Assembly (NCBI GenBank): GCA_016875795.1
Contig: VGOU01000004.1
Location: 1-38,465, forward strand
DNA from: Chloroflexota bacterium
GTDB lineage: Bacteria > Chloroflexota > Limnocylindria > P2-11E
Length of the DNA: 38,465 nt
Reading direction: 5' to 3'
The first letter of the stretch is position 1, and each line of letters opens with the position of its first letter. The translations under genes and the position numbers were made by a program. The notes under the pieces were generated by a model that was given only the letters and a program-made list of their open reading frames with translations, made no database searches and was not told the origin of the DNA. Shown here piece by piece: positions 3,215 through 19,130 of this stretch.

Positions 3215-4122
3215 GCGCACGCCCCTCGCGGCTCGGCCTTGGGACCGTCCAGTTCGGCATGGACTACGGGTTCAGCGCCAGGAAGGCGCAGGACACGGTC
3301 GACGAGATCCTCGAGACGGCGAAAGGGATCGGCATCACCTTCGTCGACACCGCTCGTGGCTATGGGGACAGCGAGGCGAAGATCGGGGACCACCTGCGGC
3401 GTCGCGGGTACCCGGGCCTCGTCCTCGCGACGAAGCTCGCACCGGACATCCCGGTGAGCGTCGCCGACGGCGCGGAGCTGAAGGCGAGCATCCTCGCCTC
3501 GATCGACGCGTCACGGAGGGCGCTCGGTAGGGACGTGCTCGACATCGTCCTCTTGCACCGCTCCGAGGACTGGATCCTGCGGAGCGACATGTTGTGGACG
3601 ACCGTCAGCGAGATCGGGTCGACCGGCGTGTGGAAGTCGTTCGGCATCTCCGTCTACGACGTGCCCGCGGCCCGTGCGGCCCTCGATGCCGGCGCGGGGA
3701 TCGTCGAGGTGGTCGAGGCCCCATACAACGTCTTCGACCGTCGCTTCGCCGCGCTCGCTCGCCAGTTCGAGCGGCAGGGCGTCCATGTCGTCTCACGGTC
3801 GGCGTTCCTGAAGGGGCTGATCCCACTACCCACGGACGCCCTGCCGCCCTGGGCGGCGGAACTCGCCCCGGCGAAGCGGCGGCTGGAGGATCTCGCGGCC
3901 GAGGGCGGGACGAGCGTCGCCGAACTCGCGCTCCGGGCCTGCCTGCGCGCACCGTTCATCGGCTCGACGATCGTCGGTGTCGACTCTGCCACGGAGCTTG
4001 CGGCGAATGCTCGCTCGCTCGCGCCACGCCCCGACCTCGACCGCGTCCTCGATGAAGTCGAGCGGATCGATGTCGATCCCGCCTCGATCGATCCACGGCG
4101 CTGGCTCGCGCACGGGTTCTGA
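3211..4122 (+). CDS. Aldo/keto reductase family protein
   Basis: RLGLGTVQFGMDYGFSARKAQDTVDEILETAKGIGITFVDTARGYGDSEAKIG...LATKLAP...IVLLHRSEDW: AKR barrel with Tyr/Lys/His. Start uncertain (possible CTG at 3211; the ORF track starts at the internal ATG 3259). Confidence 0.83.
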   Translation: MSARPSRLGLGTVQFGMDYGFSARKAQDTVDEILETAKGIGITFVDTARGYGDSEAKIGDHLRRRGYPGLVLATKLAPDIPVSVADGAELKASILASIDASRRALGRDVLDIVLLHRSEDWILRSDMLWTTVSEIGSTGVWKSFGISVYDVPAARAALDAGAGIVEVVEAPYNVFDRRFAALARQFERQGVHVVSRSAFLKGLIPLPTDALPPWAAELAPAKRRLEDLAAEGGTSVAELALRACLRAPFIGSTIVGVDSATELAANARSLAPRPDLDRVLDEVERIDVDPASIDPRRWLAHGF

Positions 4123-4134
4123 CACCCCGCGCCT

Positions 4135-4163
4135 TTGTCCCGGTCAGGCCGCTCGGCTAGCGT
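4135..4163 (+). promoter_or_regulatory. Possible sigma70-like promoter (TTGTCC-17 nt-TAGCGT) giving a near-leaderless transcript from GTG 4171
   Basis: ttgtcc at 4135-4140, 17-nt spacer, tagcgt (TANNNT) at 4158-4163, 7 nt before GTG; one of the few real gaps in the left operon. Weak motif match. Confidence 0.3.
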
Positions 4164-4170
4164 ATCGGGA

Positions 4171-5511
4171 GTGAAGACCCCCTCCGTCGAGCGTAGCGGC
4201 GCACACGCGCTCGGCGCCGGGCAGGGACTCTGGGAGCGCGCGAAGCGCGTCATCCCGGGCGGCAGCATGTTGTTCTCCAAGCGTCCGGAGCTCTGGCTGC
4301 CCGACCTCTGGCCGGCGTACTTCAGCCGCGCCGAGGGTCACCGTGTGTGGGACCTCGAGGGCCGTGAGCTCATCGACATGCTCTTCGCCGTGGGGCAGAG
4401 CACCCTCGGGTACGGTCACCCGGAGGTCGACGCCGCCGTCCGCGACGTGATCGCGGCCGGCAACATGTCTTCGCTGAACTGCCCCGAGGAAGTGGGGCTC
4501 GCCGAGCGCCTCGTCGAGCTGCACCCATGGGCCGACATGGTGCGCTTCGCCCGCACCGGTGGCGAAGGCAACGCGATCGCCATCCGGATCGCACGAGGCG
4601 CGACCGGCAAGGACGCGATCGCTTTCTGCGGGTACCACGGCTGGCACGACTGGTACCTCGCCGCGAACCTTGGCAGCGACGACAGCCTGAGGGGCTATCT
4701 CCTGCCGGGGCTCGAGCCGAACGGCGTCCCGAGCGCGCTGCGCGGCACCGTGCGGCCCTTCGAATACAACGATATCGCGGGGCTCGAGCGGATCCTCGCG
4801 GCCGGCGATGTAGGCACGATATGCATGGAGGTCTCGCGCAGCTTCGGACCCGCGAACGACTTCCTTCAGCGCGTCCGACGGCTCGCCACCGAGCGCGGCG
4901 TCGTTCTCCTGTTCGACGAGTGCACCTCGGGGTTCCGCCAGACGTTCGGCGGGCTGCACAAGCACTACGGGGTCGACCCCGATATCGCGACATTCAGCAA
5001 GGCGCTCGGCAACGGGTACGCCGTGACGGCGGTGCTCGGCCGCCGCGAGGTGATGGAGGCAGCCCAGTCCAGCTTCATCAGCAGCACCTTCTGGACGGAG
5101 CGCATCGGTGCGGCCGCCGGGCTAAGGACGCTCGAAGTGATGGAGCGCACGCGCTCGTGGGAGCGGATCACCGCGACGGGTCTCTCCATCATGGATCGGT
5201 GGAAGCGCCTCGCGACCGCCCACGGGGTAGCCATCCAGGTGAGCGGGCTTCCGGCGCTGGCCGCGCTCAGCTTCAGCGGCCCGAACGCGCTCGCCTACAA
5301 GACGCTGCTCGCGCAGGAGATGCTCGCGAAAGGGTATCTCGCCAGCACGATGGTCTATGTCTCGACCGCGCACACCCCCGAGGTCGTCGACGGCTACTTC
5401 GAGGCGCTCGACCCGGTCTTCCGGACGATCCGTGAGTGCGAGGACGGGCGGGACGTGGCATCTCTCCTCCAGGGACGGGTCTGCGAGACCGGGTTCAAGC
5501 GGCTCGCATGA
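4171..5511 (+). CDS. Class III aminotransferase (glutamate-1-semialdehyde aminomutase-like)
   Basis: GLWERAKRVIPGGSMLFSKRPE...MLFAVGQSTLGYGHPEVDAAV...LLFDECTSGFRQTFGG...DIATFSKALGNGYAVTAVLG; PLP Lys present. GTG at 4171 chosen as start. Confidence 0.88.
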   Translation: MKTPSVERSGAHALGAGQGLWERAKRVIPGGSMLFSKRPELWLPDLWPAYFSRAEGHRVWDLEGRELIDMLFAVGQSTLGYGHPEVDAAVRDVIAAGNMSSLNCPEEVGLAERLVELHPWADMVRFARTGGEGNAIAIRIARGATGKDAIAFCGYHGWHDWYLAANLGSDDSLRGYLLPGLEPNGVPSALRGTVRPFEYNDIAGLERILAAGDVGTICMEVSRSFGPANDFLQRVRRLATERGVVLLFDECTSGFRQTFGGLHKHYGVDPDIATFSKALGNGYAVTAVLGRREVMEAAQSSFISSTFWTERIGAAAGLRTLEVMERTRSWERITATGLSIMDRWKRLATAHGVAIQVSGLPALAALSFSGPNALAYKTLLAQEMLAKGYLASTMVYVSTAHTPEVVDGYFEALDPVFRTIRECEDGRDVASLLQGRVCETGFKRLA

Positions 5512-6233
5512 CCGTGCGGCGCATCGCCGTCATCCCCGCACGTGGCGGCTCGAGGCGGATCCCGGACAAGAACATCCGTCCGTTCTGTGGCAAGCCGATG
5601 ATCGGCCACATCCTCGAAGCGGCCCGCGCGAGCGGTCTCTTCGACGTCATCCATGTCTCGACCGACAGCCCGCGGATCCGCGAGACCGTGGAGGGCCTCG
5701 GTGCCACCGTGGACTTCATGCGCCCGCGCGAACTCGCCGACGACCTCACTCCCGTCATGCCGGTGCTGCGCTTCGTGGTCGAGCGCTACGTCGAACGCGG
5801 GCGCCGCTTCGACCAGGTATGGCTCCTCAGCGCCTGCGCCCCCTTCGTCGAACACGTCGACCTGCGCGCCGCCGCGAGACGGCTCGACGGCGCTCCGCCC
5901 GGCACCTCGCTGATGACGATCGCGCAGTACCCTGTGCCGATCGAGTGGGCGTACCGGCGCGCGCCCGATGGGATGCTCACGCCTGTCCAGCCGGGCATGT
6001 TCACGGTCCGCTCCCAGGATCTCGAGAAGGCGTACTTCGACACCGGCAGCTTCGCCGTGCTGCCGGCGGCATCCGTGCTCGGGTCCGAGGGGGCAGGAAC
6101 GAACGTCGGGTTCATGGGCCACGTGATCGACCGGACCAGGGCCGTCGACATCGATGACGAGGAAGACTGGGCGCTCGCGGAAGCTCTGTTCCGCCAGCGA
6201 CAGGGGGAGCCCAGCCCCATGAGCGTCAGATGA
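5508..6233 (+). CDS. pseF: Acylneuraminate cytidylyltransferase family, PseF-like (CMP-Pse synthetase)
   Basis: RIAVIPARGGSRRIPDKNIRPFCGKPMIGHILEAA...ELADDLTPVMPVLRFVVERY...DTGSFAVLPA...VIDRTRAVDIDDEEDWALAE; ATGA overlap with upstream stop. Confidence 0.87.
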   Translation: MTVRRIAVIPARGGSRRIPDKNIRPFCGKPMIGHILEAARASGLFDVIHVSTDSPRIRETVEGLGATVDFMRPRELADDLTPVMPVLRFVVERYVERGRRFDQVWLLSACAPFVEHVDLRAAARRLDGAPPGTSLMTIAQYPVPIEWAYRRAPDGMLTPVQPGMFTVRSQDLEKAYFDTGSFAVLPAASVLGSEGAGTNVGFMGHVIDRTRAVDIDDEEDWALAEALFRQRQGEPSPMSVR

Positions 6234-6532
6234 AGCGGGACGAGGCGCTCGAGCTCATGCGCGAGATCCTCGAAGGACTTCGCCGCTCGGGTCTCGCCGA
6301 GGCAGGTGATCCCCTCGGCGCCGAGACGGTGCTCATCGGCGCGGGCGCCGCGCTCGACTCGGTCGGATTCGTCACGTTCATCGCCGAGCTCGAGGATCGG
6401 CTCAGCGCGGGACGGCGGGAGCCCGTCGAGCTCATCCTGACCGATGTCTGGCAGTTCAACCGGGATGATCCGTTCCTGAGCGCCGGCGTGCTCGCGGACT
6501 ACTGCGCGCAGGAGGTGGCCGGGCGCTCGTGA
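6230..6532 (+). CDS. Acyl-carrier-protein-like protein (atypical carrier protein)
   Basis: Small protein (100 aa) with ALDSVGFVTFIAELEDRL, resembling the 4'-phosphopantetheine DS(x) motif and helix II of ACPs; sits in the acyl module with ATGA/GTGA overlaps. Confidence 0.6.
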   Translation: MKRDEALELMREILEGLRRSGLAEAGDPLGAETVLIGAGAALDSVGFVTFIAELEDRLSAGRREPVELILTDVWQFNRDDPFLSAGVLADYCAQEVAGRS

Positions 6533-7236
6533 CCGATCGGGCGGTCATGCTCGTCACCGGGACGAGCCGCGGCATCGGACTCGGGATCGCCGAGTACTTC
6601 GTCGAGCGCGGTTACACGGTGTGCGGTTGCAGTCGCTCGGCCGGCACGCTGGACTCCCCGCACTACCGCCACACCGTCCTCGACGTGGCCGACGAGCCGG
6701 CGGTCCGCGCATGGATCGCCGCCGTGGCGCGCGATCTCGGACGGATCGACGTAGCGGTCTGCAATGCGGGCATCGTCGGGTCGTCGCTCATGCTGTCCGT
6801 CACGCCGACGAAGACGTGGGACGAATTCGCGACGACGCACATGCGCGGCGTCTTCCTCGTGTGTCGCGAAGTCTCGAAGGTGATGGTCCGGCAGCGTGGG
6901 GGGCGGATCGTGAACCTGTCCTCGCCGGCCGTCGCGTGGCACATGCCCGGAGCGGCCGCGTACGCCGCGACGAAGGCCGGGATCGAGGAGATGACGCGAG
7001 TGCTCGCGGCAGAGCTCGCACCGGCGGGCGTGACGTGCAACGTCGTGCGTCCGGGTCTGGTGCTGACCGGCACCGCCCGCGCGCTCGGCGGTGACCGCGC
7101 CGCGTCGATGTTGGATCGGCAGACCATCAGGCGCGAGGTCACCATCGAGGAGATCTGTCACGTGATCGAGTTCTTCGCCGCGCCGGCGAGCACGGCGATC
7201 ACCGGACAGACGCTCAGCATGTGCCTGATCGGCTGA
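6529..7236 (+). CDS. SDR-family oxidoreductase (FabG-like)
   Basis: MLVTGTSRGIGLGIAEYF, NAGIVG, NLSSPAVAWHMPGAAAYAATKAGIEEMTRVLAAELAPAGVTCNVVRPG: TGxxxGxG, catalytic Ser and YxxxK. Confidence 0.9.
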   Translation: MTDRAVMLVTGTSRGIGLGIAEYFVERGYTVCGCSRSAGTLDSPHYRHTVLDVADEPAVRAWIAAVARDLGRIDVAVCNAGIVGSSLMLSVTPTKTWDEFATTHMRGVFLVCREVSKVMVRQRGGRIVNLSSPAVAWHMPGAAAYAATKAGIEEMTRVLAAELAPAGVTCNVVRPGLVLTGTARALGGDRAASMLDRQTIRREVTIEEICHVIEFFAAPASTAITGQTLSMCLIG

Positions 7237-7889
7237 GCGTCGCCGTCCCGGAGACGTATCAGCATGGTGCGTTCTCCGTAGCGGCCATCCCCACGGGTGA
7301 GCGTTGGGGGGCCATCTGCTACGTCGTGCGCGACGCGTCCTCGGGCGAGGCGGTGATCGTCGATCCGGGAGGAGCGTCCTCCGCGATCCGCGCCGCCGTC
7401 GCCGGCTTGGGCGCTTCGGTCCGCGGCGTCCTGTTGACGCACGCGCACCACGATCACGTGGGTGCCGCCGCCGAGGTCGCCGCTCATTTCGGGGTCCGCT
7501 GCCACATCCACTCGGCGGACTTCAAGCTCCTTCGCAAGGCGGCGACCTACTCGGTCGCGTTCGGGGGAAGACCGTTCCCTCCTGTGACCGACCCCGTCGC
7601 GCTCGACGCGGAAGGCTCGACCTTCGCGTTCGGCCCCCTGCGCATCGTGCACACGCCCGGCCATACGCCCGGGAGCTGCTCCTTCTTCTTCCCCGGCTTC
7701 GTCTTCACGGGCGACACCCTCCTTCACCGGGAGGTCGGCAGAACGGACCTACCGGGCTCGGACCGGGCTGCCCTCGTCGCGTCGGTGGACGAGATCATGC
7801 GGCTGGCATCCGACGACGACATCCTCTACGGCGGCCACCCACGCCCCTGGCGCGCGGGTGAGGCGCGCCGCTGGTGGGCCGAGCGGTGA
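7221..7889 (+). CDS. MBL-fold metallo-hydrolase (glyoxalase II-like)
   Basis: LLTHAHHDHVGAAAEVAAHFG (HxHxDH), HTPGHTPGSCSFFFPGFVFTGDTLLHREVGRTDLPGSD, LYGGHPRPW; overlaps the upstream CDS by 16 nt. Confidence 0.88.
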   Translation: MPDRLSVAVPETYQHGAFSVAAIPTGERWGAICYVVRDASSGEAVIVDPGGASSAIRAAVAGLGASVRGVLLTHAHHDHVGAAAEVAAHFGVRCHIHSADFKLLRKAATYSVAFGGRPFPPVTDPVALDAEGSTFAFGPLRIVHTPGHTPGSCSFFFPGFVFTGDTLLHREVGRTDLPGSDRAALVASVDEIMRLASDDDILYGGHPRPWRAGEARRWWAER

Positions 7890-8899
7890 TGTCCCCGTCC
7901 GACCGCGTCCGGCCCGGCGGGGTCGGCGTCATCGGAGTCGGCCGGTACGTTCCGGAGAAGCTCGTGACGAACGAGCAGGTCGCGGCGTGGACCGGGATGA
8001 GCGCGGCGGCGATCGAGGAGAAGACGGGGATCCGCGCGCGCTATGTCGCCGCGGACGGCGAAACGGCCTCCGCGATGGCGGCCACCGCGGCGTCCCAGGC
8101 GCTCGAGACGGCCGGTGTGGATCCAGCGCGGTTGGGGATCATCGTCGCCTGCACGTTCACGGGCGACTACGTCTATCCGGCGATGGCCTGTCGGCTCCAG
8201 CAGCTGATCGGCGCGCGGAGCGCGGGGGCCTTCGACCTCATGGCGAACTGCACCGGCTTCCAGGTGGGTCTCGACATGGTCGCGAGCCGGATGATGGTCG
8301 ACCCGACGATCGACCACGCGCTCGTCGTGGGCGCCGCGCTCCAATCGCGCTTCATCGACTGGTCCGACGCGGACTCCGCGATCTACTTCGGCGATGGCGC
8401 GAGTGCCGCCGTGCTCGGCCGCGTGCCGGAGGGGTACGGGATCATCGCGTCAGACGTCTACACCAATCCCGCGGCGTTCGAGTCCGTGCGGCTGCGCGGG
8501 GGCGGCTCGAGCCATCCGCTGCGCCCCGACAACATCTCGCAGGGCCTGCAGTACTACGAGGTGGACGGCCTCGAGGTGTGGAAGCAAGTCGTCCGCTACC
8601 AGCCGCAGAACATCCGCCGCGCGCTCGAGAAGGCCGGCATGACGACGGACGACGTCGATGTGTTCATCTTCCACCAGGCTAATCTTCGGCTCATCGAGTA
8701 CCTCATGGGGAAGATGAGGAAGCCGATGTCCATGACATACACGAACGTCGCCGCGATCGGGAACACGGCCGACGCCTCCATCGGTCTCGCGCTCTGCGAC
8801 GCGGTCCGGGCGGGCGCGATCCGCCGCGACGACATCGTCGCGGTCTCGGGGGTGGGCGCCGGATTCACCTTCGGGACCTCCGTCCTCCGCTGGTACTGA
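7889..8899 (+). CDS. 3-oxoacyl-ACP synthase III (FabH-like KAS III)
   Basis: Cys (LMANCTGFQVGL), His (FIFHQANLRLIEYL) and Asn (IGNTADASIGLAL) of the KAS III triad in the expected order; TGATG coupling to the upstream gene. Confidence 0.92.
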   Translation: MSPSDRVRPGGVGVIGVGRYVPEKLVTNEQVAAWTGMSAAAIEEKTGIRARYVAADGETASAMAATAASQALETAGVDPARLGIIVACTFTGDYVYPAMACRLQQLIGARSAGAFDLMANCTGFQVGLDMVASRMMVDPTIDHALVVGAALQSRFIDWSDADSAIYFGDGASAAVLGRVPEGYGIIASDVYTNPAAFESVRLRGGGSSHPLRPDNISQGLQYYEVDGLEVWKQVVRYQPQNIRRALEKAGMTTDDVDVFIFHQANLRLIEYLMGKMRKPMSMTYTNVAAIGNTADASIGLALCDAVRAGAIRRDDIVAVSGVGAGFTFGTSVLRWY

Positions 8900-8905
8900 C
8901 GGGGA

Positions 8906-10099
8906 GTGGGAGCGCAGCGCGGATTCGACGAGATCCAGGTCGGCGACCACGCCACGCTCGAACGCGTCATCACCGCCGCGGACGTGTCCGCGTTCGCCGA
9001 CCTCTCGGGGGACCGCAATCCCCTCCACGTCGACCCCGGGTACGCGCGCCTGACCGAATTCGGCCGTCCGGTCGTGCACGGCATGCTCTCGGCCTCGTTC
9101 ATCTCGACCCTGATCGGCATGCATCTGCCGGGTCCCGGTGCGCTCTGGACCAGTCAGACGCTCAACTTCAGGGCGCCGGCGTTCGTCGGAGACGCCGTCA
9201 CCGTGCGTGGGGAGGTCCGCCAGAAGGTCGTCGCCGCGCGACTCCTCCTCATCGACATCACGGTCACCACGGCGGCAGGGACCGTCATCGTGGACGGTCA
9301 GGCAACGGTGAAGGTGATCGATACAGTCAGGCGGACGGACATGGAGCAGGGGACCGGGAAGCGCACGATCGTGGTCACCGGCGGCGCCGGCGGTATCGGC
9401 GGCGCGATCTGCCGCGCCCTCGGCGCACAGGGCCACGATGTCGTGGTCAACTACCGCTCGAACGGCGATGCGGCGGCGAACGTCGCCGCCGAGGTCGCGG
9501 CCGCCGGCGGACGTGCCATCACGGTGGCCGGCGATGTGAGCGACCCGGGCGCCGCGTCGGAGCTGTTCGGGCGGGCGCGCGCCGACTTCGGCCGCGTCGA
9601 CGGGTTCGTCCACGCGGCCGGGCCGGGCAACGCACCGATGACGTTCGAGGCCCTCGCCTGGTCTGACGTTCGCGAGCAGGTCGAGGTCCACATCGGCGGC
9701 GCGTTCAACTGCGCCAAGGCCGCGCTGCCCTTCATGCTCGAAGCGGGCGGAGGCTCGATCGTCGTCATCGGCTCGATCTACGCGGACGGCGTGCCTCCTG
9801 CGCAGCAGCTTCGGTACGCGGTCGCGAAGGCGGGCCTCGCCGCGTTCGCGCGTTCGCTCGCCGTCGAGCTCGGGCCGAAGCGGATCAGGGTGAACGTCGT
9901 CTCCCCAGGAATGACGATGACCAGGATGATCGAAGCACTACCGGAAAAGGCGAAGATGCTTGCGAAAGCGCAGACCCCGCTCCGTCAGCTCGCCGATCCG
10001 CGCGACGTCGCGCAGGCCGTAGCGTTCCTCCTCGGCCCCTCAGCGGGTCACATCACGGGTGAGACGCTTCGCGTCTGCGGCGGCATCGCCATGATCTGA
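8906..10099 (+). CDS. Fusion: N-terminal MaoC-like (R)-hydratase + C-terminal FabG-like SDR
   Basis: N-term FADLSGDRNPLHVDPGYARLTEFGRPVVHGML (hot-dog hydratase motif), then IVVTGGAGGIGGAICRALGAQG...SIYADGVPPAQQLRYAVAKAGLAAFARSLAVELGPKRIRVNVVSPG in one uninterrupted frame. Confidence 0.92.
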   Translation: MGAQRGFDEIQVGDHATLERVITAADVSAFADLSGDRNPLHVDPGYARLTEFGRPVVHGMLSASFISTLIGMHLPGPGALWTSQTLNFRAPAFVGDAVTVRGEVRQKVVAARLLLIDITVTTAAGTVIVDGQATVKVIDTVRRTDMEQGTGKRTIVVTGGAGGIGGAICRALGAQGHDVVVNYRSNGDAAANVAAEVAAAGGRAITVAGDVSDPGAASELFGRARADFGRVDGFVHAAGPGNAPMTFEALAWSDVREQVEVHIGGAFNCAKAALPFMLEAGGGSIVVIGSIYADGVPPAQQLRYAVAKAGLAAFARSLAVELGPKRIRVNVVSPGMTMTRMIEALPEKAKMLAKAQTPLRQLADPRDVAQAVAFLLGPSAGHITGETLRVCGGIAMI

Positions 10100-10110
10100 G
10101 GCGGGCTCGT

Positions 10111-11040
10111 ATGAGCACGGCCGTGAGCGACCATCCGAACGTCGCCAGGATCATCGAGATCATCGGGAGACAGAACCCCCTGCAGAGGAAGCGGATCTCG
10201 GCCTTCGTCTCGACCCAGGGGTCCGAGTACTGGGAGTTCGCGGAATCGCTCAGCCGGACGCTCAACGAACGTCTTCTCCGGTCGGACGAGAGCGCACAGG
10301 AAGCGGCGCGCTCCTACAACAGGATGTGCATGGACTTCGTGAACGAGCAGATCCGCTTCAAGAAGACGGGCCGATACTCGCTCGACGACGCGGCGGTGGC
10401 GCATGACGAGGTGTACAGCCGCCCTGACGTGATGCGCTACTACATGATCGGTCTGCTCCTGTCATACATGTTCTGGCCGAACCACTACGCGATGCTCCGC
10501 TTCCTCGACGAGCACCTTCGTACCCGCGCGATCGCGAAGTACCTGGAGATCGCACCGGGCCACGGACTGTTCACCGCTCGCGCCGTGCGGAGATCGCCGC
10601 GGCTCCGCGGCATGCTCGTGGACATCAGCCCGACCGCTCTCGAGGTGTCGCGGAGCATCCTCGAGGCCTTCGAAGTCGACCTGAGCCGTCTGGACGTCGT
10701 GCGCGGGGACTTCCTCGAGGTCGACCTCGGCGAGACGGAGTTCGACTTCATCTCGATGGGTGAGGTCCTCGAGCACGTGAACGAGGCGGACGTCCTGCTC
10801 GCCCGCGCCGCGCGGCTGCTCACTCCGGATGGCGCGATCTTCATGACGACCTGCGCGAACTGCCCGGCCCTTGACCACGTCTACCACTTCCACAACGTGA
10901 GGGAGATAAGGGAGCTCATCGCGAAGGCTGGCCTCGCGATCGGGGCCGAGATGGCGTTGCCCTCCGAGCCGTTCCCCGAGGAGGTCTGGGAGCGCGAGCT
11001 CGTCACGATCAACTATTGCTGCATCCTCACGCCGGCATGA
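10111..11040 (+). CDS. Class I SAM-dependent methyltransferase
   Basis: AKYLEIAPGHGLFTARAV (motif I), GMLVDISPTALEVSRSIL, FDFISMGEVLEHVNEADVLLARAARLLTPDGAIFMTT. Confidence 0.85.
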   Translation: MSTAVSDHPNVARIIEIIGRQNPLQRKRISAFVSTQGSEYWEFAESLSRTLNERLLRSDESAQEAARSYNRMCMDFVNEQIRFKKTGRYSLDDAAVAHDEVYSRPDVMRYYMIGLLLSYMFWPNHYAMLRFLDEHLRTRAIAKYLEIAPGHGLFTARAVRRSPRLRGMLVDISPTALEVSRSILEAFEVDLSRLDVVRGDFLEVDLGETEFDFISMGEVLEHVNEADVLLARAARLLTPDGAIFMTTCANCPALDHVYHFHNVREIRELIAKAGLAIGAEMALPSEPFPEEVWERELVTINYCCILTPA

Positions 11041-12878
11041 GCCCTTCTGAGCCCGACACGCGCGATGCCGTCCGCGTCGCGCTCGACCGGGTCCGGACCG
11101 ACGGCACCTACACGGCGTACCTTGCCGCGCAGAACGCGCTCGCGGCCGACCCGAGCGGGGAGCCCGTCCGGATCGCCGTGCTGCGCAACTTCACGGTGGA
11201 GCCGATCCTCCCGGTCCTGGAGGTGGAGCTCGCGCTCAGCGGCCTGAAGGCGAGCATGTACGTCGGCGACTTCGACGCCGTCGCCGCCGACGCGCTCGAC
11301 CCGGACGGCGGCCTCGCCCGTTCATCACCTGATGTCGTGATCCTCGCCCTGTGGCTGGAAGGCCTCGCTCCCCGCCTGGTCGGCCGCTTCCCGTCTCTCA
11401 CGGATGACGAGGTGGCGGCAGAGACCCAGCGCGTCGTCGGATACGTGCGCGACATGCTCGTCGGAGTGCGCCGGTCGACGAACGCGCCGATCATCGTGAA
11501 CAACTTCCCGCTGCTCGGTCGGCCGGCCCTGGGGATCCTCGACGCGCAGGGCGAGGCCTCGCAGCATGGTTCGATCCTCGCCATCGGACGCGGCCTGCTC
11601 GGCGTTGCCCGAGACATGCCGGATGTCTTCATCGCCGACCATCTCTCCGTCTTCGCGAACGTCGGCAGCAGCGACGGGTTCGATCGGAAGAAGTGGCTAC
11701 ACCGGCGCAGCCCGGTCGGTACGGTCGCGCTCGCACCGCTCGGGCGGGAGTACGCCCGGATCATCCGGGCGCTGCGCGGACGTGTTCGCAAGTGCGTGGT
11801 CGTCGACTGCGACGACACGCTCTGGGGCGGCGTCGTCGGCGAGGATGGACCCCACGGGCTCGCGCTCGGCGAGGGCCCCGGAGCGGCGTACACCGCGCTG
11901 CAGCGCGAGCTGCTGAATCTGCACGACCGCGGCGTTCTCCTCGCCGTCTGCACGAAGAACAACGAGGCCGACGTCCTCGAAGTCCTCGACGGTCATCCCG
12001 AGATGCTCGTCAGGCGCTCGCACCTTGCGGCGTACCGGATCAACTGGGACGACAAGGCCTCGAACCTGCGTGCCATCGCGTCGGAGCTGAACATCGGTCT
12101 CGACAGCATGGTGTTCGTCGACGACTCCGCGTTCGAGTGTGGGCTCGTGCGCGAGAGCCTGCCCGAGGTAGCGGTCATACATCTCGACCCCGCAAAGGGA
12201 GACCTCGCGACCCAGCTGACCGACCCAGGATGGTTCGATGCGCTCATCACTTCGAGCGAGGACGCGCTGCGGACGGCCCACTTCAGGGCGGAGGCGACGC
12301 GGCGCGACATCCAGAGCGCGGCGTCTTCGCTCGACGAGTACCTGGAGCACCTCGGGATGGTCGCGGAGATCGAGCCGGCATCCGACGCCACGATCCCCCG
12401 GATCGCCCAGCTCACACAGAAGACGAACCAGTTCAACCTCACGACCCGCAGGTACACTGAGGCGGATATCCGACGCTACGCGGAGTCGCCGTCTGCCGAA
12501 GTCCTTTCGATGCGCCTTCGCGACAAGGTCGCGGACCTCGGGATCATCGCGGTCGCGATCGTGCGTTATGCAGGGGAGATGGCCGAGATAGATTCGTTCC
12601 TGATGAGCTGCCGCGCGCTCGGCCGTGGCGCAGAACGTGTCCTGTTCGACGAGGTGTGCCGTCGCGCGCGTGAGCGCGGATGCACGCGGATCGGCGGCGT
12701 GTACCTGCGCACGCCCAAGAACGAGCAGGTGGCCGGGTTCTACCCATCGGTCGGCCTCGGCGCTGAGCCGGCGGACGGACCCGGTGTCCGCTTCGCGGCC
12801 GAGATCGCCGGGGTGCGGGCGGCACCGTCGCACATCAACGTCGTACGCGGGCGGCACGCCGAAGTGGTCTCGTCATGA
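11037..12878 (+). CDS. HAD-IIIC / FkbH-like protein (glyceryl-ACP-forming family) with C-terminal GNAT-like region
   Basis: KCVVVDCDDTLWGGVVGEDG (DxDxT), LAVCTKNNEADVLEVL, MVFVDDSAFECGLVRESLPEV, TQKTNQFNLTTRRYTEADI, then a GNAT-like C-terminus; ATGA overlap with the methyltransferase stop. Confidence 0.92.
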   Translation: MSPSEPDTRDAVRVALDRVRTDGTYTAYLAAQNALAADPSGEPVRIAVLRNFTVEPILPVLEVELALSGLKASMYVGDFDAVAADALDPDGGLARSSPDVVILALWLEGLAPRLVGRFPSLTDDEVAAETQRVVGYVRDMLVGVRRSTNAPIIVNNFPLLGRPALGILDAQGEASQHGSILAIGRGLLGVARDMPDVFIADHLSVFANVGSSDGFDRKKWLHRRSPVGTVALAPLGREYARIIRALRGRVRKCVVVDCDDTLWGGVVGEDGPHGLALGEGPGAAYTALQRELLNLHDRGVLLAVCTKNNEADVLEVLDGHPEMLVRRSHLAAYRINWDDKASNLRAIASELNIGLDSMVFVDDSAFECGLVRESLPEVAVIHLDPAKGDLATQLTDPGWFDALITSSEDALRTAHFRAEATRRDIQSAASSLDEYLEHLGMVAEIEPASDATIPRIAQLTQKTNQFNLTTRRYTEADIRRYAESPSAEVLSMRLRDKVADLGIIAVAIVRYAGEMAEIDSFLMSCRALGRGAERVLFDEVCRRARERGCTRIGGVYLRTPKNEQVAGFYPSVGLGAEPADGPGVRFAAEIAGVRAAPSHINVVRGRHAEVVSS

Positions 12879-13120
12879 GAGCTGCGGAGACGCAGCTGAA
12901 GGAGGTGCTTTCCGACGTGTTCGGGGTCGAGCCGTCGGCGATCGACGACGAGGCCTCTGTTGACACGATCGAGAAGTGGGACTCGCTGAACCACCTCAAG
13001 CTCGTCCTTGCCCTCGAAGAGCGATTCGGGGTCAGCCTGAACGAGGAGCAGATCACCGAGATGCTCAACTACCCCCTGGTGAAGGCGGTGCTCGAGGAGC
13101 ACGGGGTCGAGTTCAGCTAG
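12875..13120 (+). CDS. Acyl carrier protein
   Basis: 81 aa, IEKWDSLNHLKLVLALEERFGVSL: classic phosphopantetheine Ser motif and ACP length; ATGA coupling to FkbH-like gene. Confidence 0.93.
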   Translation: MRAAETQLKEVLSDVFGVEPSAIDDEASVDTIEKWDSLNHLKLVLALEERFGVSLNEEQITEMLNYPLVKAVLEEHGVEFS

Positions 13121-13126
13121 CCGGCG

Positions 13127-14488
13127 ATGACCGCCGTCGGAACGTACCTCGAGCGGTTGCAGGCGGGTGGCCCCGCGCCCGCGGTCCACGAAGCCGGGGT
13201 CGAGCACAGTTACCACCAGCTGATGGAGCGCGCCGACCAGTGGTCCGGCGTGCTCGAGGGCCACGGGATCGGCGGCGGATCGGTCTGCGCGTTCGTCGGG
13301 GATCACTCCCTCGACACGATCGCGCTCCTCCTCGCGCTCATTCGGCGGCGCGCCGTCGCGGTCCCGTTCACGCCGGCGTCCCGCGGCGAGATGGCGAGAT
13401 GCCTCGGCATCGCCGGGGCCCGATCGCTCGTCGAGCCCGACGGGTCCGGTCGTTGGCGCGTCAGGCCCACGGATGTCACCTCGACGAATCCGCTCATCGA
13501 CTCGTTCCGCGCGGCGGACGAGCCCGGTCTCGTCGTGTTCACGTCGGGCTCGACGGGAGAACCGAAGGGCATCCTGCACAGCTTCGAACGGGTCCTCCGG
13601 AAGTTCGTCGCGGCGCGCGAGGCGCATCGCACCGTGCTGTTCCTTCTGCTCGATCATTTCGGCGGCCTGAACACGCTCCTCGGCGTCTTCGCGAGCCTGG
13701 GTGTGGGGATCTGCCTGCGCGATCGTTCGCCGGCCGCGGTGTGCGACGCCATCGAGGTGGGGCGTGCCACGCTGCTGCCCACCACCCCGACGTTCCTCAA
13801 CCTGCTCATCACGTCGGGTGCCTATCGCGGGCGTGATCTCTCCTCGATCCGCCTGATCACGTATGGCACAGAGGTCATGCCTGAGGCGACGCTCGTGCGC
13901 GCGCGGGAGATCTTCCCGGCCGCGGAGCTGAAGCAGACGTACGGGCTGTCCGAGCTCGGCGTGCTCCGGTCGAAGTCGGAGGCGAGCGGTTCGACGTTCG
14001 TCCGGCTCGGCGGGCCCGGATTCGAAGTGAAGGTCGTCGACGGGACGCTCTGGGTCCGTTCCGAGGCGAACATGATCGGCTACCTGAACGCGCCGAGCCC
14101 GTTCGACGGCGAAGGCTGGCTGTGCACCGGCGACAGGGTCGAGCAGAAGGGTGAGCTCGTGCGCATCCTCGGCCGCGAGAGCGACGTCATCAACGTCGGA
14201 GGGCAGAAGGTGTTCCCGGCCGAGATCGAGAACGTCCTTCGCGAGGCCGCCCATGTGAGCGATGCCACGGTCCGCGCGGCGGCCCATCCGCTGCTCGGCT
14301 CGGTCGTACACGCGACGGTGACGCTCGAGCGTCCCGAGGATCCGGTCGCGCTCCGCGAGCGTCTGCGGCGCCACTGCGCGGCCCGGCTCGCGCGATACAA
14401 GGTCCCGGTGCGCATCGATGTCGCGGACGAGCTCCCAGTCAGTGAGCGATACAAGAAGATCCGCGACGCGCTCGCCGACCGGCCGTGA
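13127..14488 (+). CDS. AMP-dependent synthetase/ligase (acyl-ACP or acyl-CoA ligase-like)
   Basis: LVVFTSGSTGEPKGILHS (P-loop-like A3), LKQTYGLSELG, GWLCTGDRVEQKGELVRILGRESDVINVGGQKVFPAEIE; immediately downstream of the ACP. Confidence 0.9.
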   Translation: MTAVGTYLERLQAGGPAPAVHEAGVEHSYHQLMERADQWSGVLEGHGIGGGSVCAFVGDHSLDTIALLLALIRRRAVAVPFTPASRGEMARCLGIAGARSLVEPDGSGRWRVRPTDVTSTNPLIDSFRAADEPGLVVFTSGSTGEPKGILHSFERVLRKFVAAREAHRTVLFLLLDHFGGLNTLLGVFASLGVGICLRDRSPAAVCDAIEVGRATLLPTTPTFLNLLITSGAYRGRDLSSIRLITYGTEVMPEATLVRAREIFPAAELKQTYGLSELGVLRSKSEASGSTFVRLGGPGFEVKVVDGTLWVRSEANMIGYLNAPSPFDGEGWLCTGDRVEQKGELVRILGRESDVINVGGQKVFPAEIENVLREAAHVSDATVRAAAHPLLGSVVHATVTLERPEDPVALRERLRRHCAARLARYKVPVRIDVADELPVSERYKKIRDALADRP

Positions 14489-15036
14489 GCCCGGACGACC
14501 CCGTTCTCCGGTTCGCGCGTCTGCGAGAGGAGGATCTCGAGACCGTCCTGCGCTGGCGCACGCGCCCCGACATCGCGGCCACGATGATCACGGACATCGA
14601 GCCGGACATGGTCGAGCAGCGGCGATGGTTCGCGCGCATCTCACTGGATCCGACCGTTCGCTACTGGCTCATCCGCTGGAGCGGGCGGCCAGTCGGCGTC
14701 GTCAACCTGGCCGCGATCGACGAAGGTCATCGGCGCTGCAGCGCGGGCTACTACGTCGGAGAGCGGGACCTGATCCAGCTCGGGGCGCTCATCCCGCCGT
14801 ACGTGTACAATCACGTCTTCCGGGATCTCAGGATGAACAAGATCTATGGCGAGGTGATGGCCACGAACGCCGCCGCGCTCCGGATGCACGCCCTGCATGG
14901 TTACCGGCAGGTCGGGACGCTCCGCCAGCACGTGATGAAGCGGGGCCAGTTCGTGGACATGATCCTCATCGAGCTCCTCGCGGAGGACTGGCTCGCGCAG
15001 GAGCGATTCGCGCGGTACGTCGCCGTGTTCGAGTGA
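14485..15036 (+). CDS. pseH: GNAT N-acetyltransferase, PseH-like (UDP-4-amino-sugar N-acetyltransferase)
   Basis: LREEDLETVLRWRTRPDIAATMITD...YYVGERD...RMNKIYGEVMATNAAALRMHALHGYRQVGTLRQHVMKRGQFVDMILIELL pattern; adjacent to pseG and pseI. Confidence 0.75.
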   Translation: MSPDDPVLRFARLREEDLETVLRWRTRPDIAATMITDIEPDMVEQRRWFARISLDPTVRYWLIRWSGRPVGVVNLAAIDEGHRRCSAGYYVGERDLIQLGALIPPYVYNHVFRDLRMNKIYGEVMATNAAALRMHALHGYRQVGTLRQHVMKRGQFVDMILIELLAEDWLAQERFARYVAVFE

Positions 15037-15046
15037 TCCACGCACG

Positions 15047-16078
15047 TCAGGCGTCGGCGAAGACGTCGAGGAGCGCCTCCCCGGATCGGCGCGGATCGAC
15101 GACAGCACCGGCGGCCTGAGCGAGCGCAGCGAGGCGGGCGCCGTCCCCGAGGAACGCCTCGATGCGGCTCGCATCGGCCCGGCCGATCCGGTCGCCCGGC
15201 CCGAGATACGCGCAGAGGCCGTCGCGATCGATAGCGGCAAGGAAGGCGGCCTGCGCCTCAGTCAGCGAGATCCCGAGGAAGGGGACCCGCATCCACATGA
15301 GCTCCCAGACGGTCGAGCCGCCGGCCGAGATCGCCGCATCAGCCGCGTCCATTTCCGCGGCCATGTCGTCAACGCTGCGCGCGAGGTCGAAGCGTCCCGG
15401 CTGCTCGCGCCCGAGCGCCCTGATGGCCTCGGGGACCTCGGTCAGGGGTCCGGCGATCACCCGGAAGCGCACCGAGCGAAGTCCGATCGCGTCCAGGACG
15501 GGCGCCAGCCGGGCGAGCGCATCGCGGGCGGCCGTCGCGCCGCCGCCGAGCGACACGAGGACCCGCCGTGGCGCTCCGGCGCGATCCACTCGCGGCGTCG
15601 CCCGGCGGAACTCCCGACGGAGCATGAGATACCGCGTGCCGAGACACCGCACCGTATGCGACGCCGTGGAGTACCGTGTGAGTTCGGCGCGATGATTCTG
15701 ATCGAGCAGTACATCACCGACGAAGTGGTGGACCGGACCGTCAGCCACGGACATCACCTTCGCTCCAGCGGCGCGCGCCGCGGCCTGGTAGTCCGTCGCG
15801 AACGCCGTTCCGTCGAGCACGATCCAGGCGGCACCGATCCGCTCGGCGATCGCGGTGAGGCCGCGCGCATCGTCGATCGAGCCCGTGACCATCGCGCGCG
15901 GGAGCTCGTGGATCTCCAGCTCGCGCACGAACGAGGGCAGCGTGGCCGGATCCGTCTGGGTCGCGAGATGCACCTGACGGCCATGATCCCGAAGAAGCTG
16001 ACCCAGAGCGGTCATGCGGCTTACGTGCCCCGAGCCGATCCGAGGCCCGGCGTCGGCGCGGATCAGGATCGGACGCAT
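15047..16078 (-). CDS. pseG: UDP-2,4-diacetamido-2,4,6-trideoxy-beta-L-altropyranose hydrolase, PseG-like
   Basis: ILIRADAGPRIGSGHVSRMTALGQLL (PseG GxGHxxR), WIVLDGTAFATDYQ, VLVSLGGGATAARDALARL, AISAGGSTVWELMWMRVPFLGISL. Lone minus-strand gene in the Pse block. Confidence 0.87.
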   Translation of the reverse strand: MRPILIRADAGPRIGSGHVSRMTALGQLLRDHGRQVHLATQTDPATLPSFVRELEIHELPRAMVTGSIDDARGLTAIAERIGAAWIVLDGTAFATDYQAAARAAGAKVMSVADGPVHHFVGDVLLDQNHRAELTRYSTASHTVRCLGTRYLMLRREFRRATPRVDRAGAPRRVLVSLGGGATAARDALARLAPVLDAIGLRSVRFRVIAGPLTEVPEAIRALGREQPGRFDLARSVDDMAAEMDAADAAISAGGSTVWELMWMRVPFLGISLTEAQAAFLAAIDRDGLCAYLGPGDRIGRADASRIEAFLGDGARLAALAQAAGAVVDPRRSGEALLDVFADA

Positions 16079-16107
16079 CGGTCCTCCTCCCGGAAGGGGG
16101 TCCGCTC
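16079..16107. promoter_or_regulatory. 29-bp divergent intergenic segment carrying two back-to-back Shine-Dalgarno sequences (pseG on minus, pseI on plus)
   Basis: Minus reading: GGGAGGAGG-ACCG-ATG; plus reading: GGAAGGGGG-TCCGCTC-ATG. Both are strong purine-rich SDs next to start codons. Confidence 0.65.
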
Positions 16108-17202
16108 ATGACACCGCGCCCGATCTTCGTGCATGGTCACACCATCGGAGGGGACGCGGCGCCGTTCGTCATCGCGGAGATGTCGGCCAATCACAACGGA
16201 TCCCTCGAGCGCGCGCTCGCCATCGTCGATGCCGCGGCGGACGCGGGCGCCCATGCGGTGAAGATCCAGACATACACCGCCGACACGATGACGCTCGACA
16301 TCGACGCCGGTGAGTTCGCCATCACGGATCCCGGCAGCCTCTGGCGTGGCCGGACGCTGTACGACCTGTACCGCGAGGCGGCAACGCCGTACGAGTGGCA
16401 CCGGGAGATCTTCGATCGATGCCGCTCGCGGGGGCTCGTCGGCTTCAGCTCGCCGTTCGACCCGACGGCCGTGGACTTCCTCGAGTCGCTCGGCGTCGGC
16501 ATGTACAAGATCGCGTCCGCCGAGGTCGTGGACATCCCTCTCATCCGCCGCGTGGCCTCGACCGGCAAGCCTATGGTGATGTCGACGGGAATGACGGACC
16601 TGGCCGAGCTTTCGGAGGCGATCGACGCCGCACGCGGCCAGGGATGCCAGGACATCCTCGTGCTGAAGTGCACGAGCGCGTATCCGGCGCCCGTCGAGGC
16701 GTCGAACGTATTGACCATCCCCGAGATCCGGCGCAGGTTCGACGTGCACGTCGGGTTCTCCGACCACACGCTGGGGCTCGGCGCCGCGGTCGCGGCCGTG
16801 GCGCTCGGGGCCGTGGCGATCGAGAAGCACTTCACGCTCTCCAGGGAAGATGGTGGTGTCGATGCCGCATTCTCCGCAACGCCGGATGAACTCGCACGGC
16901 TCGTTCGTGAGACGGCCACGGCGCGGCGCGCGCTGGGCGGCGTCCAGCTAGCGCCGAGCGCCGACGAGATCGCCTCGCGCCGCTATCGCCGCTCCCTTTA
17001 CATCGTCGAGGACATGAAGGCGGGCGACGTGTTCACGGCGGCGAATGTGCGTGCCATCCGGCCCGGCCTGGGGCTCGCGCCGAAGCACATCGACGCATTC
17101 ATCGGGAGGGCGATCTCGCGTGACGCGCCGCGGGGGACCGCCCTGACGTGGGAGCATCTGGCGGACGCACGCCCCCGGCTTGCGCCTCGATCGAGCGGAT
17201 GA
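16108..17202 (+). CDS. pseI: Pseudaminic acid synthase, PseI-like (NeuB family with C-terminal SAF domain)
   Basis: FVIAEMSANHNGSLERALAIVDAAADAGAHAVKIQTYTADTMT, GFSSPFDPTAVDFLESLGVGMYKIASAE, GFSDHTLGLGAAVAAVALGAVAIEKHFTLSR, SAF-like SLYIVEDMKAGDVFTAANVRAIRPGLGL. Confidence 0.94.
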   Translation: MTPRPIFVHGHTIGGDAAPFVIAEMSANHNGSLERALAIVDAAADAGAHAVKIQTYTADTMTLDIDAGEFAITDPGSLWRGRTLYDLYREAATPYEWHREIFDRCRSRGLVGFSSPFDPTAVDFLESLGVGMYKIASAEVVDIPLIRRVASTGKPMVMSTGMTDLAELSEAIDAARGQGCQDILVLKCTSAYPAPVEASNVLTIPEIRRRFDVHVGFSDHTLGLGAAVAAVALGAVAIEKHFTLSREDGGVDAAFSATPDELARLVRETATARRALGGVQLAPSADEIASRRYRRSLYIVEDMKAGDVFTAANVRAIRPGLGLAPKHIDAFIGRAISRDAPRGTALTWEHLADARPRLAPRSSG

Positions 17203-19069
17203 TCGGCGCGCGCATCCGATCCACGGCCCCGCCGTCGCGGAACGGGTCCAGATCGGCGAGCGCGCCCGACCAATCTCCCAGGTCCGAGTGTGCTGCTGGA
17301 TCCCTGCGATAGGCATCGACGGCTCCGCGCAGACGGTGCCACCCGTCGAAGACGACGCGCCCGCTGAGCGACCTCAGCGGATGGTCCCGTAGGTCGTCGA
17401 CGTCGACCATCACGCTGCGGACCCCGATGAGGTGACCCTCGAGCGACGCCGTGCCGGCGCTCAGCTTGCCGATACAGAGATCGGCGGCGAGCGCCGCCTC
17501 CGCGACGAACGTCTCACGCGATGAGTCGCTCGCGCCCCGGATCACGCAGCGCCCGCTGGCGACGAGATCGTCGAGCCGCGAAGCGACGCTCCCGATGCGC
17601 TGGCGGAGATCCCACGGCTTCTTGGGCTTCAGGACGAGGCCGAGGGTCGGGTCCTCCTCGACCCATCGGATGAGGAAGGCGTAGTCCTTGGCAGCCTGCG
17701 CGTTGGTGGCGAGGACGTCCCAACGATCCGCCGAGTTCTCGTCGAAGAAGCACATGACGAACGTCGCGCCGCCCGCCTCGAGCGTCGAGCGCGTCGCCCG
17801 GACGCTCGGGGAGCGCCGGAGCTCGGCGGCAGCTTCGACCGCGCCATCGGAGAGCGGCCCCGTGATGACATAGTGCTTCGCGGGTGACTCCAGAGAGCGC
17901 ACCAGCTCCGCGAAGATCCCCGAGTACACGAGTTGGACCGTCTCGCCCGCGGTCACGAGCGTCGTCGGGCCGATGATGTTCGCGATCGAATACTGGTAGT
18001 TCACGCTCGTTCCACCGAGCGCGTCGAGCGCGAGGACCTGGCCGCTCGAGCCGTTCGAGCCCACCACATTGACCCGGATACCCGTCGAGCGAAAGAACGT
18101 GTACCAGGAGGCGTGCTCGAGAGCGAGCGACGCGACCGCCTTCGCCAGACCGAGCGGCAGTCGGCGCTGCCTCGCCGCCGTCTCGAGGACCGCTCGGCCG
18201 ATGCGGATCCAGTGGGGAACGGCGACCCGGAGCGAGGCCGTGGTGACCAGGGGGACCTTCCCCACGACCGTGATGCCACGCTCGCGGAGCTTCGCCTCTT
18301 CGGCAGGGGGACGGCCTTCGTGGTCGTACAAGATCACGCGGAAGGCGTCCGATGGGCGGAGCCAGAAGAGCTCCGAGTGTCTCGTAGGGTCGAGCGACAC
18401 CGCGCGGTGGCCGAACCGAAGACCGACGGCCGGCGGCCTCGATCCCGTCGATGCGGCCGCGGGCCGTCGAGCCCGCCGCGCGCGTACGCGGCCTGGGAGC
18501 TGGGCCGCGAGGCCCGCGCCGCGCAGGACGAGCCGCCCGCCGCTCAGACGTGGGTAACCGATGAGACGCAGCCCCTCCGCGCTCGCGACCTCGCGAACGC
18601 GGCCGATCCACGGCCGGTCCGCGATGAGAATGAGCACGTCGCGGAGGGGGACGCGCTCGCGTTCGGCGACCCGACGGGCGACCGCGATCCGCAGCCGCTC
18701 CTCCCGGACGGCCGTCTCGAGCATCTTGTCGAGGTGGAAGGCGACGGCGCGTGCGGGCCACGCCGGCTCGAGCGCGCGGACCACCGGCTCGCCGTGGATC
18801 CAGTCGGTCCGTATCGCCGAGGAGAGGGCGCGCGACTCCCGGAGGAGGCCGATGAGCGCGCACCCCCCGTCGGCGTTCGTGAGCTCGCCGATGTTCGCAT
18901 CGACCTGGCGGACGGATCCGCGGATGAGTCCGGCGCGCGCCGCGAGCCCGACGATCCTCCCGCTGGCTGGCGTGAGCGGGTCGAAGTGCCAGATGTCAGC
19001 GGTCCGGCCCCGGATCGCGATCGCGGCGAGAGACCACACCGAGATGCGGTCCGCGAAGACGACGGCCAC
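17099..19069 (-). CDS. Large (about 656 aa) glycosyltransferase-like/surface carbohydrate biosynthesis protein; candidate nonulosonic acid transferase
   Basis: Single long frame with protein-like composition (SNGSSGQVLALDALGGTSVNYQYSIANIIGPTTLVTAGETVQLVYSGIFAELVRSLESPAKHYVITGP; LGLVLKPKKPWDLRQRI; LCIGKLSAGTASLEGHLIGVRSVMVDVDDL) suggesting a GT-B-like C-terminal half; next to pseI and an ABC exporter. Function inferred. Confidence 0.62.
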   Translation of the reverse strand: MAVVFADRISVWSLAAIAIRGRTADIWHFDPLTPASGRIVGLAARAGLIRGSVRQVDANIGELTNADGGCALIGLLRESRALSSAIRTDWIHGEPVVRALEPAWPARAVAFHLDKMLETAVREERLRIAVARRVAERERVPLRDVLILIADRPWIGRVREVASAEGLRLIGYPRLSGGRLVLRGAGLAAQLPGRVRARRARRPAAASTGSRPPAVGLRFGHRAVSLDPTRHSELFWLRPSDAFRVILYDHEGRPPAEEAKLRERGITVVGKVPLVTTASLRVAVPHWIRIGRAVLETAARQRRLPLGLAKAVASLALEHASWYTFFRSTGIRVNVVGSNGSSGQVLALDALGGTSVNYQYSIANIIGPTTLVTAGETVQLVYSGIFAELVRSLESPAKHYVITGPLSDGAVEAAAELRRSPSVRATRSTLEAGGATFVMCFFDENSADRWDVLATNAQAAKDYAFLIRWVEEDPTLGLVLKPKKPWDLRQRIGSVASRLDDLVASGRCVIRGASDSSRETFVAEAALAADLCIGKLSAGTASLEGHLIGVRSVMVDVDDLRDHPLRSLSGRVVFDGWHRLRGAVDAYRRDPAAHSDLGDWSGALADLDPFRDGGAVDRMRAPIIRSIEAQAGGVRPPDAPTSGRSPAARHARSPSR

Positions 19070-19130
19070 CGGCGCCGACAGTACAACGGTGACCGCTATC
19101 GTTCAGCCATGCGACGGGCGTTCCGCTGAG

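Follow-up and report, generated by a model that had tools for sequence, protein, structure and literature searches.

The subject of this study is a locus for the synthesis of pseudaminic acid (Pse) in a Chloroflexota bacterium, in which the sugar genes enclose a block of nine genes for acyl synthesis. The locus lies on contig C4, which was analysed at its whole length of 38,465 b (hereafter, the window) and belongs to a metagenome-assembled genome (MAG; 88% complete, 2.06 Mb; 71% GC). We considered, and rejected, that the contig could be a contaminant of the MAG, as its tetranucleotide profile and GC content match those of the genome's other contigs; the half bearing the locus is slightly GC-poorer (0.69-0.70 vs 0.72-0.73). 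Between positions 353 and 17202 we find pseB, a GNAT-type acyltransferase gene, pseC, an aldo/keto reductase, a class III aminotransferase, pseF, the nine acyl genes (6230-14488, all on the plus strand), pseH, pseG, read from the minus strand, and pseI (Table 1). The acyl block of a preliminary description of this DNA is recovered; the run of plus-strand genes is interrupted by pseG, and the locus starts earlier than described there, at pseB.

The Pse enzymes were assigned with NCBIfam equivalog models at their curated cut-offs. Five of the six (PseB, PseC, PseG, PseH and PseI) score above these values, and PseF falls around 15 bits short, having PseF as its top family and a gene position and overlap that fit this assignment. 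The genes and positions of the preliminary description were confirmed. The identities proposed for the acyl genes also agree with the catalytic motifs observed, with one exception: two carriers plus a third acyl carrier protein (ACP) had been counted, and only two, ACP1 and ACP2, were found. ACP1 is divergent, neither Pfam nor NCBIfam giving a match to it; a plasmid collection queried with it returned none. The ketoacyl-ACP synthase III (KAS III) keeps its Cys-His-Asn triad, as do four aligned relatives, and its best solved relatives are FabH enzymes. FkbH combines a domain above cut-off, the DCDDT motif and an adjacent partner carrier, ACP2. Six junctions consist of the 4-base ATGA or GTGA overlaps already described, namely those of the class III aminotransferase with PseF, PseF with ACP1, ACP1 with the short-chain dehydrogenase/reductase (SDR), the methyltransferase with FkbH, FkbH with ACP2 (ATGA) and the AMP ligase with PseH (GTGA), while the metallo-beta-lactamase-fold (MBL) hydrolase and KAS III meet at TGATG, provided that the latter starts at 7889. 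By these overlaps the acyl block is coupled in translation to PseF at one end and to PseH at the other. A KAS III with intact triad, a ketoreductase-type SDR, an ACP and an N-acyltransferase are encoded together in one operon, which is the combination known from viosamine (vio) acylation.

Table 1. Features of the pse/acyl locus and the downstream exporter gene (positions in the window; ORF, open reading frame; SAM, S-adenosylmethionine).
Feature	Positions	Strand	Evidence and remarks
PseB, UDP-GlcNAc 4,6-dehydratase (inverting)	353-1429	+	TIGR03589, 496.9 bits (cut-off 407.75)
GNAT1, second N-acyltransferase	1425-2000 (start approximate)	+	PF13302, E 8.7e-29; no NCBIfam equivalog
PseC aminotransferase	1988-3214 (ORF opens 1733, homology from ~2050)	+	TIGR03588, 431 bits (cut-off 423.5)
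Aldo/keto reductase	3259-4122 (start probably upstream)	+	PF00248
Class III aminotransferase, HemL-like	4135-5511	+	PF00202
PseF, CMP-Pse synthetase	5508-6233	+	TIGR03584, 190 bits (below cut-off, 205.7); ATGA overlap at each end
ACP1, divergent carrier protein	6230-6532	+	DSVG serine motif
FabG-like SDR, presumed beta-ketoacyl-ACP reductase	6529-7236	+	YxxxK motif
MBL-fold hydrolase, presumed thioesterase/editing	7221-7889	+	PF00753; HxHxDH, as HAHHDH
KAS III (FabH-like)	7889-8899	+	PRK09352, 286.8 bits (cut-off 249); Cys-His-Asn intact
MaoC hydratase/dehydratase-SDR fusion	8906-10099	+	GDRNPLH (MaoC), YxxxK (SDR)
SAM methyltransferase, FkbH-associated family	10111-11040	+	Absent from G1164
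FkbH-type glyceryl-ACP synthase (predicted)	11037-12878	+	TIGR01686, 289.9 bits (cut-off 146.65); HAD-IIIC DxDxT motif, as DCDDT
ACP2, FkbH-partner carrier protein	12875-13120	+	PF00550; DSLN serine motif
AMP-forming acyl ligase	13127-14488	+	PF00501/PF13193; A-domain TSGSTGEPKG
PseH, acyl-gene-linked subfamily	14485-15036	+	TIGR03585, 110 bits (cut-off 93.1); clade support 100/99
PseG, UDP-sugar hydrolase	15047-16078	- (antisense to neighbours)	TIGR03590, 155 bits (cut-off 153.55)
PseI, pseudaminic acid synthase	16108-17202	+	TIGR03586, 469.5 bits (cut-off 340.25)
Candidate glycan exporter, ABC, MsbA/PglK-like	18561-20918 (ORF; real start probably ~19100)	+	PF00005/PF00664; MsbA and PglK models below cut-off

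We have analysed the occurrence of this gene set by scanning an FkbH alignment against 84,980 species genomes, the 80 loci kept being the best by tblastn among the candidates listed, and mapped with all window proteins; further searches with the AMP ligase covered the family to which Roseateles belongs and the class that includes Halobacteriovoraceae. Most of the 80 loci share with the window only FkbH and ACP2, and several further acyl genes are common to contigs of Acidovorax (5.6 kb) and Halobacteriovoraceae (6 kb), a Bacteroidia MAG and a Roseateles MAG. In the Burkholderiales genome G1164, pseB, C, F, G and H are followed by ACP1, SDR, MBL, KAS III, MaoC-SDR, FkbH, ACP2 and AMP ligase genes and then by pseI, all in one direction, and the fact that eight of the nine acyl genes thus recur in identical order argues that their presence inside the window's pse locus is not due to chance. 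The Roseateles MAG has all nine in a different order, together with pseB, pseC, aldo/keto reductase, pseF, class III aminotransferase, a pseG-GNAT fusion and pseI. Homologues of ACP1 occupy the same place in G1164, Roseateles, Bacteroidia, G1121 (Burkholderiales) and locus L044. The latter (G503:C9) comes from the window's own family, where a shorter set lies between NeuB-type synthases; its positions 2083-8394 hold MaoC, SDR, FkbH, ACP2, a lipoyl-bearing 2-oxoacid dehydrogenase E2, an MBOAT protein and an ACP1-like gene, an unusual glyceryl/acyl combination that includes a membrane O-acyltransferase. A NeuB-family synthase occurs within ~10 kb in only nine of the 80 FkbH loci, a census that, relying on FkbH alone, is a poor test of linkage to Pse. 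The MaoC-SDR fusion adjoins FkbH in eight of the 80 loci, and NeuB linkage is enriched with it (4/6 vs 5/57, p 0.003). No relative of the fusion was found among 400 genomes of the phylum, and among 177 genomes of the window's class five are above the FkbH cut-off and five above that of PseI.

The same cassette is also found with no pseI match, adjoining FdtA, a keto-isomerase of the dTDP-3-amino-3,6-dideoxyhexose pathway, in three Burkholderiales genomes of one family (G1121, G1135 and G1156) and in the Bacteroidia MAG. The first two have the eight-gene order of G1164, the stretch of G1156 starts within the SDR gene, no ACP1 being seen in it, and in the Bacteroidia MAG a methyltransferase and a VOC protein take the place of MaoC-SDR. 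These loci further contain a DegT aminotransferase (G1121, G1135, G1156) and a GNAT (G1121, G1135, Bacteroidia). The preliminary description had regarded the acyl genes as dedicated to Pse, and had named, as results that together would speak against a link, their finding mostly outside pse loci and glycans with acetylated Pse only. The link to Pse is borne out by G1164 and Roseateles and by the subfamily of the adjacent PseH (see below), but all or most of the cassette stands free of pse genes in four genomes, so that the exclusive association is not supported and the first of those results is in part obtained. A better reading of these gene neighbourhoods, since the cassette also accompanies FdtA, is that of a portable unit for amino-sugar acylation that would not be restricted to Pse. 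The acceptor pathway is exchangeable, and wherever acceptor genes are visible the recurring partners are amino-sugar genes, usually with an N-acyltransferase.

Evidence on how the acyl product would be used was obtained from PseH sequences of 20 pse loci, labelled as linked when the locus contained an AMP ligase and/or a KAS III of the cassette kind, the labels being set before the trees were calculated. The five linked PseH (window, G1164, G979 and two Azospirillum) form one clade with support 100/99, present in 100% of the bootstrap trees, and the label requires a single change on the tree versus 4.6 in shuffles, none of 500 being as low. A wider PseH/GNAT tree is also split by label, with moderate support (86/82). 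A distinct scenario resulted from PseI of these loci and of Roseateles, where a separate PseH is lacking: the label does not group (0% of bootstraps) and requires five changes versus 5.4 when shuffled. PseH thus moves with the acyl genes, separately from the rest of the pathway. As PseH tracks the acyl genes while PseI is scattered, the simplest reason would be that the linked subfamily uses their product. PseH acts on the 4-amino group, which later becomes N7 of Pse, and therefore the predicted sugar is Pse5Ac7(acyl).

Several observations weigh against this reading. The linked clade comprises five PseH from only four groups, the two near-copies from Azospirillum counting double; the linkage of G979, from the class of Halobacteriovoraceae, consists of SDR and AMP ligase only; the methyltransferase is missing in G1164, and is thus not an obligatory part; and the window encodes a second GNAT, so that the acyl group could go elsewhere. 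In respect to the donor, the GxG loop, which in many GNATs contacts the CoA pyrophosphate, is seen in 17/18 unlinked PseH but in none of the linked ones (0/5; Fisher p 1.8e-4). However, H. pylori PseH with bound AcCoA (4RI1) equally lacks GxG, having LKNGGETI at that place, and we have downgraded the loss as proof of an ACP donor, the loop not being diagnostic. That the donor is acyl-ACP rather than CoA is inferred mainly from the two adjoining ACPs.

Taking these results together, we consider it likely, judging from gene content and phylogeny, that the window holds a Pse locus with a built-in acyl-ACP cassette, whose product PseH passes to the 4-amino group (N7). In the mechanism that we propose, FkbH would load a glyceryl unit from 1,3-bisphosphoglycerate onto ACP2, glyceryl-ACP formation by FkbH being established chemistry (PMC7489565). 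The methyltransferase would O-methylate the acyl chain, and KAS III, SDR and MaoC-SDR would lengthen and/or remodel a short ACP1-bound chain by condensation, ketoreduction and possibly dehydration, the AMP ligase reloading free acid and the MBL hydrolase clearing stalled chains. Another idea, which we put forward as an assumption, is that MaoC-SDR converts glyceryl-ACP to lactyl-ACP. PseH would then take the finished hydroxyacyl from ACP and acylate with it the 4-amino group of UDP-4-amino-4,6-dideoxy-AltNAc, and PseG, PseI and PseF would lead to a CMP-Pse that is acetylated at N5 and carries the special acyl at N7, to be incorporated in a surface glycan, probably not in flagellin. As the window holds both an FkbH/methyltransferase set and a KAS III/reductase/ACP set, there may be either a single chain, started from (methyl)glyceryl and lengthened by one round, or two parallel acyl groups. 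As to its identity, we perhaps lean slightly towards an O-methylated, glycerate-derived C3-C5 hydroxyacyl over a plain 3-hydroxybutyryl. A more far-reaching version, advanced only tentatively, is that of a production line of about eight genes, portable across phyla, making an acyl chain not described before, primed by glycerate and elongated (polyhydroxy, in some cases O-methyl), which a dedicated PseH would take from ACP and not from CoA, in such a way that the swap of one enzyme plus the cassette would re-code N7.

The possibility of two products deserves consideration, although we find it rather doubtful: the KAS III/SDR/ACP1 arm would yield 3-hydroxybutyryl and the FkbH/methyltransferase/ACP2 arm a (methyl)glyceryl for another position or sugar, with PseH and GNAT1 as transferases. 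Indeed, ACP1 and ACP2 are of different type, there are two GNATs in the window, and the arms are seen apart elsewhere, as FkbH with methyltransferase (G806) or with ACP2 and MaoC-SDR (L044, L059) in sets free of KAS III, and as KAS III, SDR, ACP and ligase with no FkbH found in the A. brasilense stretch. However, the gene order of the two arms does not vary between G1164 and the FdtA loci of G1121 and G1135, and in the latter two just one GNAT was detected close to the cassette. A different acceptor, that is, another amino sugar or a polysaccharide hydroxyl made by the same locus, appears unlikely: the cassette pairs, in all or most of its genes, with FdtA sugars elsewhere and FkbH-ACP also occurs with MBOAT O-acyltransferases, but the window gives no FdtA match, its scanned proteins contain no MBOAT domain, and the AMP ligase gene overlaps that of PseH. 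Sets of FkbH, ACP and MBOAT were noted at L003 5482-10517 (S. meliloti pSymB), close to the rkp-3 K-antigen export genes, and also in Rhodobacteraceae SC52 and Tistrella, possibly serving glyceryl transfer to capsule.

A Campylobacter-type route, in which the N5-acetyl of Pse would give way to the acyl group, with 2,3-di-O-methylglyceryl as the product, seems to us quite improbable. DUF4910 (DUF4910/DUF2172), which we take to be the likely counterpart of Cj1295, occurs together with an AAC(3)-type acyltransferase in pse loci of Roseateles, G1072, Tritonibacter and Agrobacterium, alongside the cassette in the first two; the pair, found at L210 and L211 in Tritonibacter and Agrobacterium, is a possible signature of N5 acyl exchange. 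In C. jejuni the formation of Pse5(di-O-methylglyceryl)7Ac requires Cj1295 (PMC3068675). Against this route, tblastn with the Roseateles proteins gave no match to DUF4910 or AAC(3)-type genes in the window or in G1164, a reason to favour N7 over N5, and the enzyme that tracks the acyl genes is PseH. A secondary-metabolite cluster of tetronate or methoxymalonate type, merely inserted in a pse locus, is very improbable. FkbH, ACP and a FabH-like protein do form the tetronate core, FkbH, ACP and an O-methyltransferase give methoxymalonyl (PMC7489565), and Methylosinus L006 is such a cluster. Nevertheless, the window proteins scanned comprise no polyketide synthase and no E2-type acyltransferase (2-oxoacid dehydrogenase E2 domain), KAS III, whose condensing triad is complete, lies closest to true FabH enzymes, and in the further genomes examined the cassette sits in amino-sugar loci wherever its flanks are visible.

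The locus can be compared with several known systems. That of C. jejuni (Cj1293-Cj1317), which presumably holds ACP, FabH2 and ligase genes, resembles the window by gene content in its pse genes and its fkbH-domain gene cj1302, the product being a methylated glyceryl. It differs in having the acyl at N5, a Cj1295-type enzyme and flagellin as target, whereas the window has MaoC-SDR and no DUF4910/AAC(3) match. Cj1303 is FabH2 (PMC3229698), and strain 12664, in which cj1302 is a pseudogene, is reported to be without di-O-methylglyceryl-Pse, a correlation from one strain (PMC7099621). The parallel drawn in the preliminary description is fair in kind (PMC3068675, PMC7099621) but likely not in the acyl position, N7 rather than N5. 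In the P. syringae viosamine island (vioA vioB vioR vioS vioM acp vioT), N-(3-hydroxybutyryl)-viosamine was assigned to the KAS III, 3-oxoacyl-ACP reductase and ACP genes, with support from vioR mutant data and mass spectrometry (PMC3927599). Like the window, this island and P. aeruginosa PAK orfA-N combine KAS III, 3-oxoacyl-ACP reductase, ACP and acyltransferase, for an N-hydroxyacyl on a nucleotide-activated 4-amino-6-deoxy sugar; unlike it, the viosamine island has dTDP-viosamine as acceptor and lists no FkbH, second ACP, MaoC-SDR, MBL or AMP ligase. In the polar flagellin islands of Aeromonas, group I shares the aldo/keto reductase and class III aminotransferase within its pse genes, and group II has ACP, 3-oxoacyl-ACP reductase and AMP synthetase genes between pseBC and pseFGHI; these islands differ by luxC/luxE, and KAS III, FkbH and MaoC-SDR are not named in the same report (PMC7874193). 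We note that the reductase and HemL-like aminotransferase pair (window 3259-5511) recurs in pse loci of Aeromonas, Roseateles and Pseudosulfitobacter. Plasmid p3 of A. brasilense Sp7 has pse genes, two KAS III, several SDR, ACP, acyl ligase and a PseH-like GNAT of the linked clade, but neither FkbH match nor MaoC-SDR in the stretch, and a flagellin gene adjoins. Finally, the S. fredii HH103 K-antigen, given as Pse5Ac7(3-hydroxybutyryl) in the work of Gil-Serrano 1999 as cited in PMC3788101, bears its hydroxyacyl at N7, as predicted for the window; in S. fredii SMH12, unlike the window, no acyl-gene match lies beside the pse genes in the stretch examined and PseH falls outside the linked clade.

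In respect to the destination of the sugar, the flagellin domain PF00669 had no match across the 88% complete genome, although absence from a MAG is not proof, and 3' of the pse/acyl locus lie the ABC exporter and several sugar genes in a row. For these reasons a flagellar target is unlikely, and a surface glycan is the more likely destination. Among the neighbouring genes, a SIS-HAD fusion of GmhA/GmhB type (window 28360-29382) suggests a heptose precursor pathway within the polysaccharide cluster. On the minus strand, an ORF of 656 aa (17099-19069), convergent with pseI and with coding-like composition, is a candidate glycosyltransferase or orphan; it belongs to no Pfam or NCBIfam family, and neither the plasmid collection nor 400 genomes of the phylum gave a relative. 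In Roseateles (L152/L153, joined coordinates 1931-7252 and 31492-38563) the Pse/acyl genes are accompanied by those for type I secretion (OEP, HlyD, ABC), for a TPR-GT41 glycosyltransferase and for an ALTTAQ-repeat protein of 1773 aa; GT41 genes near the cassette also occur in G1072, G1121 and G1135, which suggests that a repeat protein is glycosylated in the cytoplasm and secreted.

Pse loci with acyl genes are already known from C. jejuni, Aeromonas and Azospirillum, and in one open-access library we found no paper linking FkbH-type genes to pseudaminic acid beyond a mention for C. jejuni. What is new is that the order of the eight genes is conserved, that the set is exchanged between pathways for Pse and for 3-amino sugars, that it occurs in groups distant from one another, and that a clade of PseH goes with the acyl genes. 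The variety of N-acyl groups in sialic-acid-like sugars affects how hosts, antibodies and phages recognise bacterial surfaces, and the conserved cassette together with a predictive PseH clade provides a concrete handle on the genes for unusual acyl groups; the PseH type alone could serve to mine genomes for novel acylated Pse. These results also suggest that the ACP, FabH and FkbH genes of the C. jejuni flagellar locus are of the same widespread kind, in which acyl and sugar synthesis are mixed and matched.

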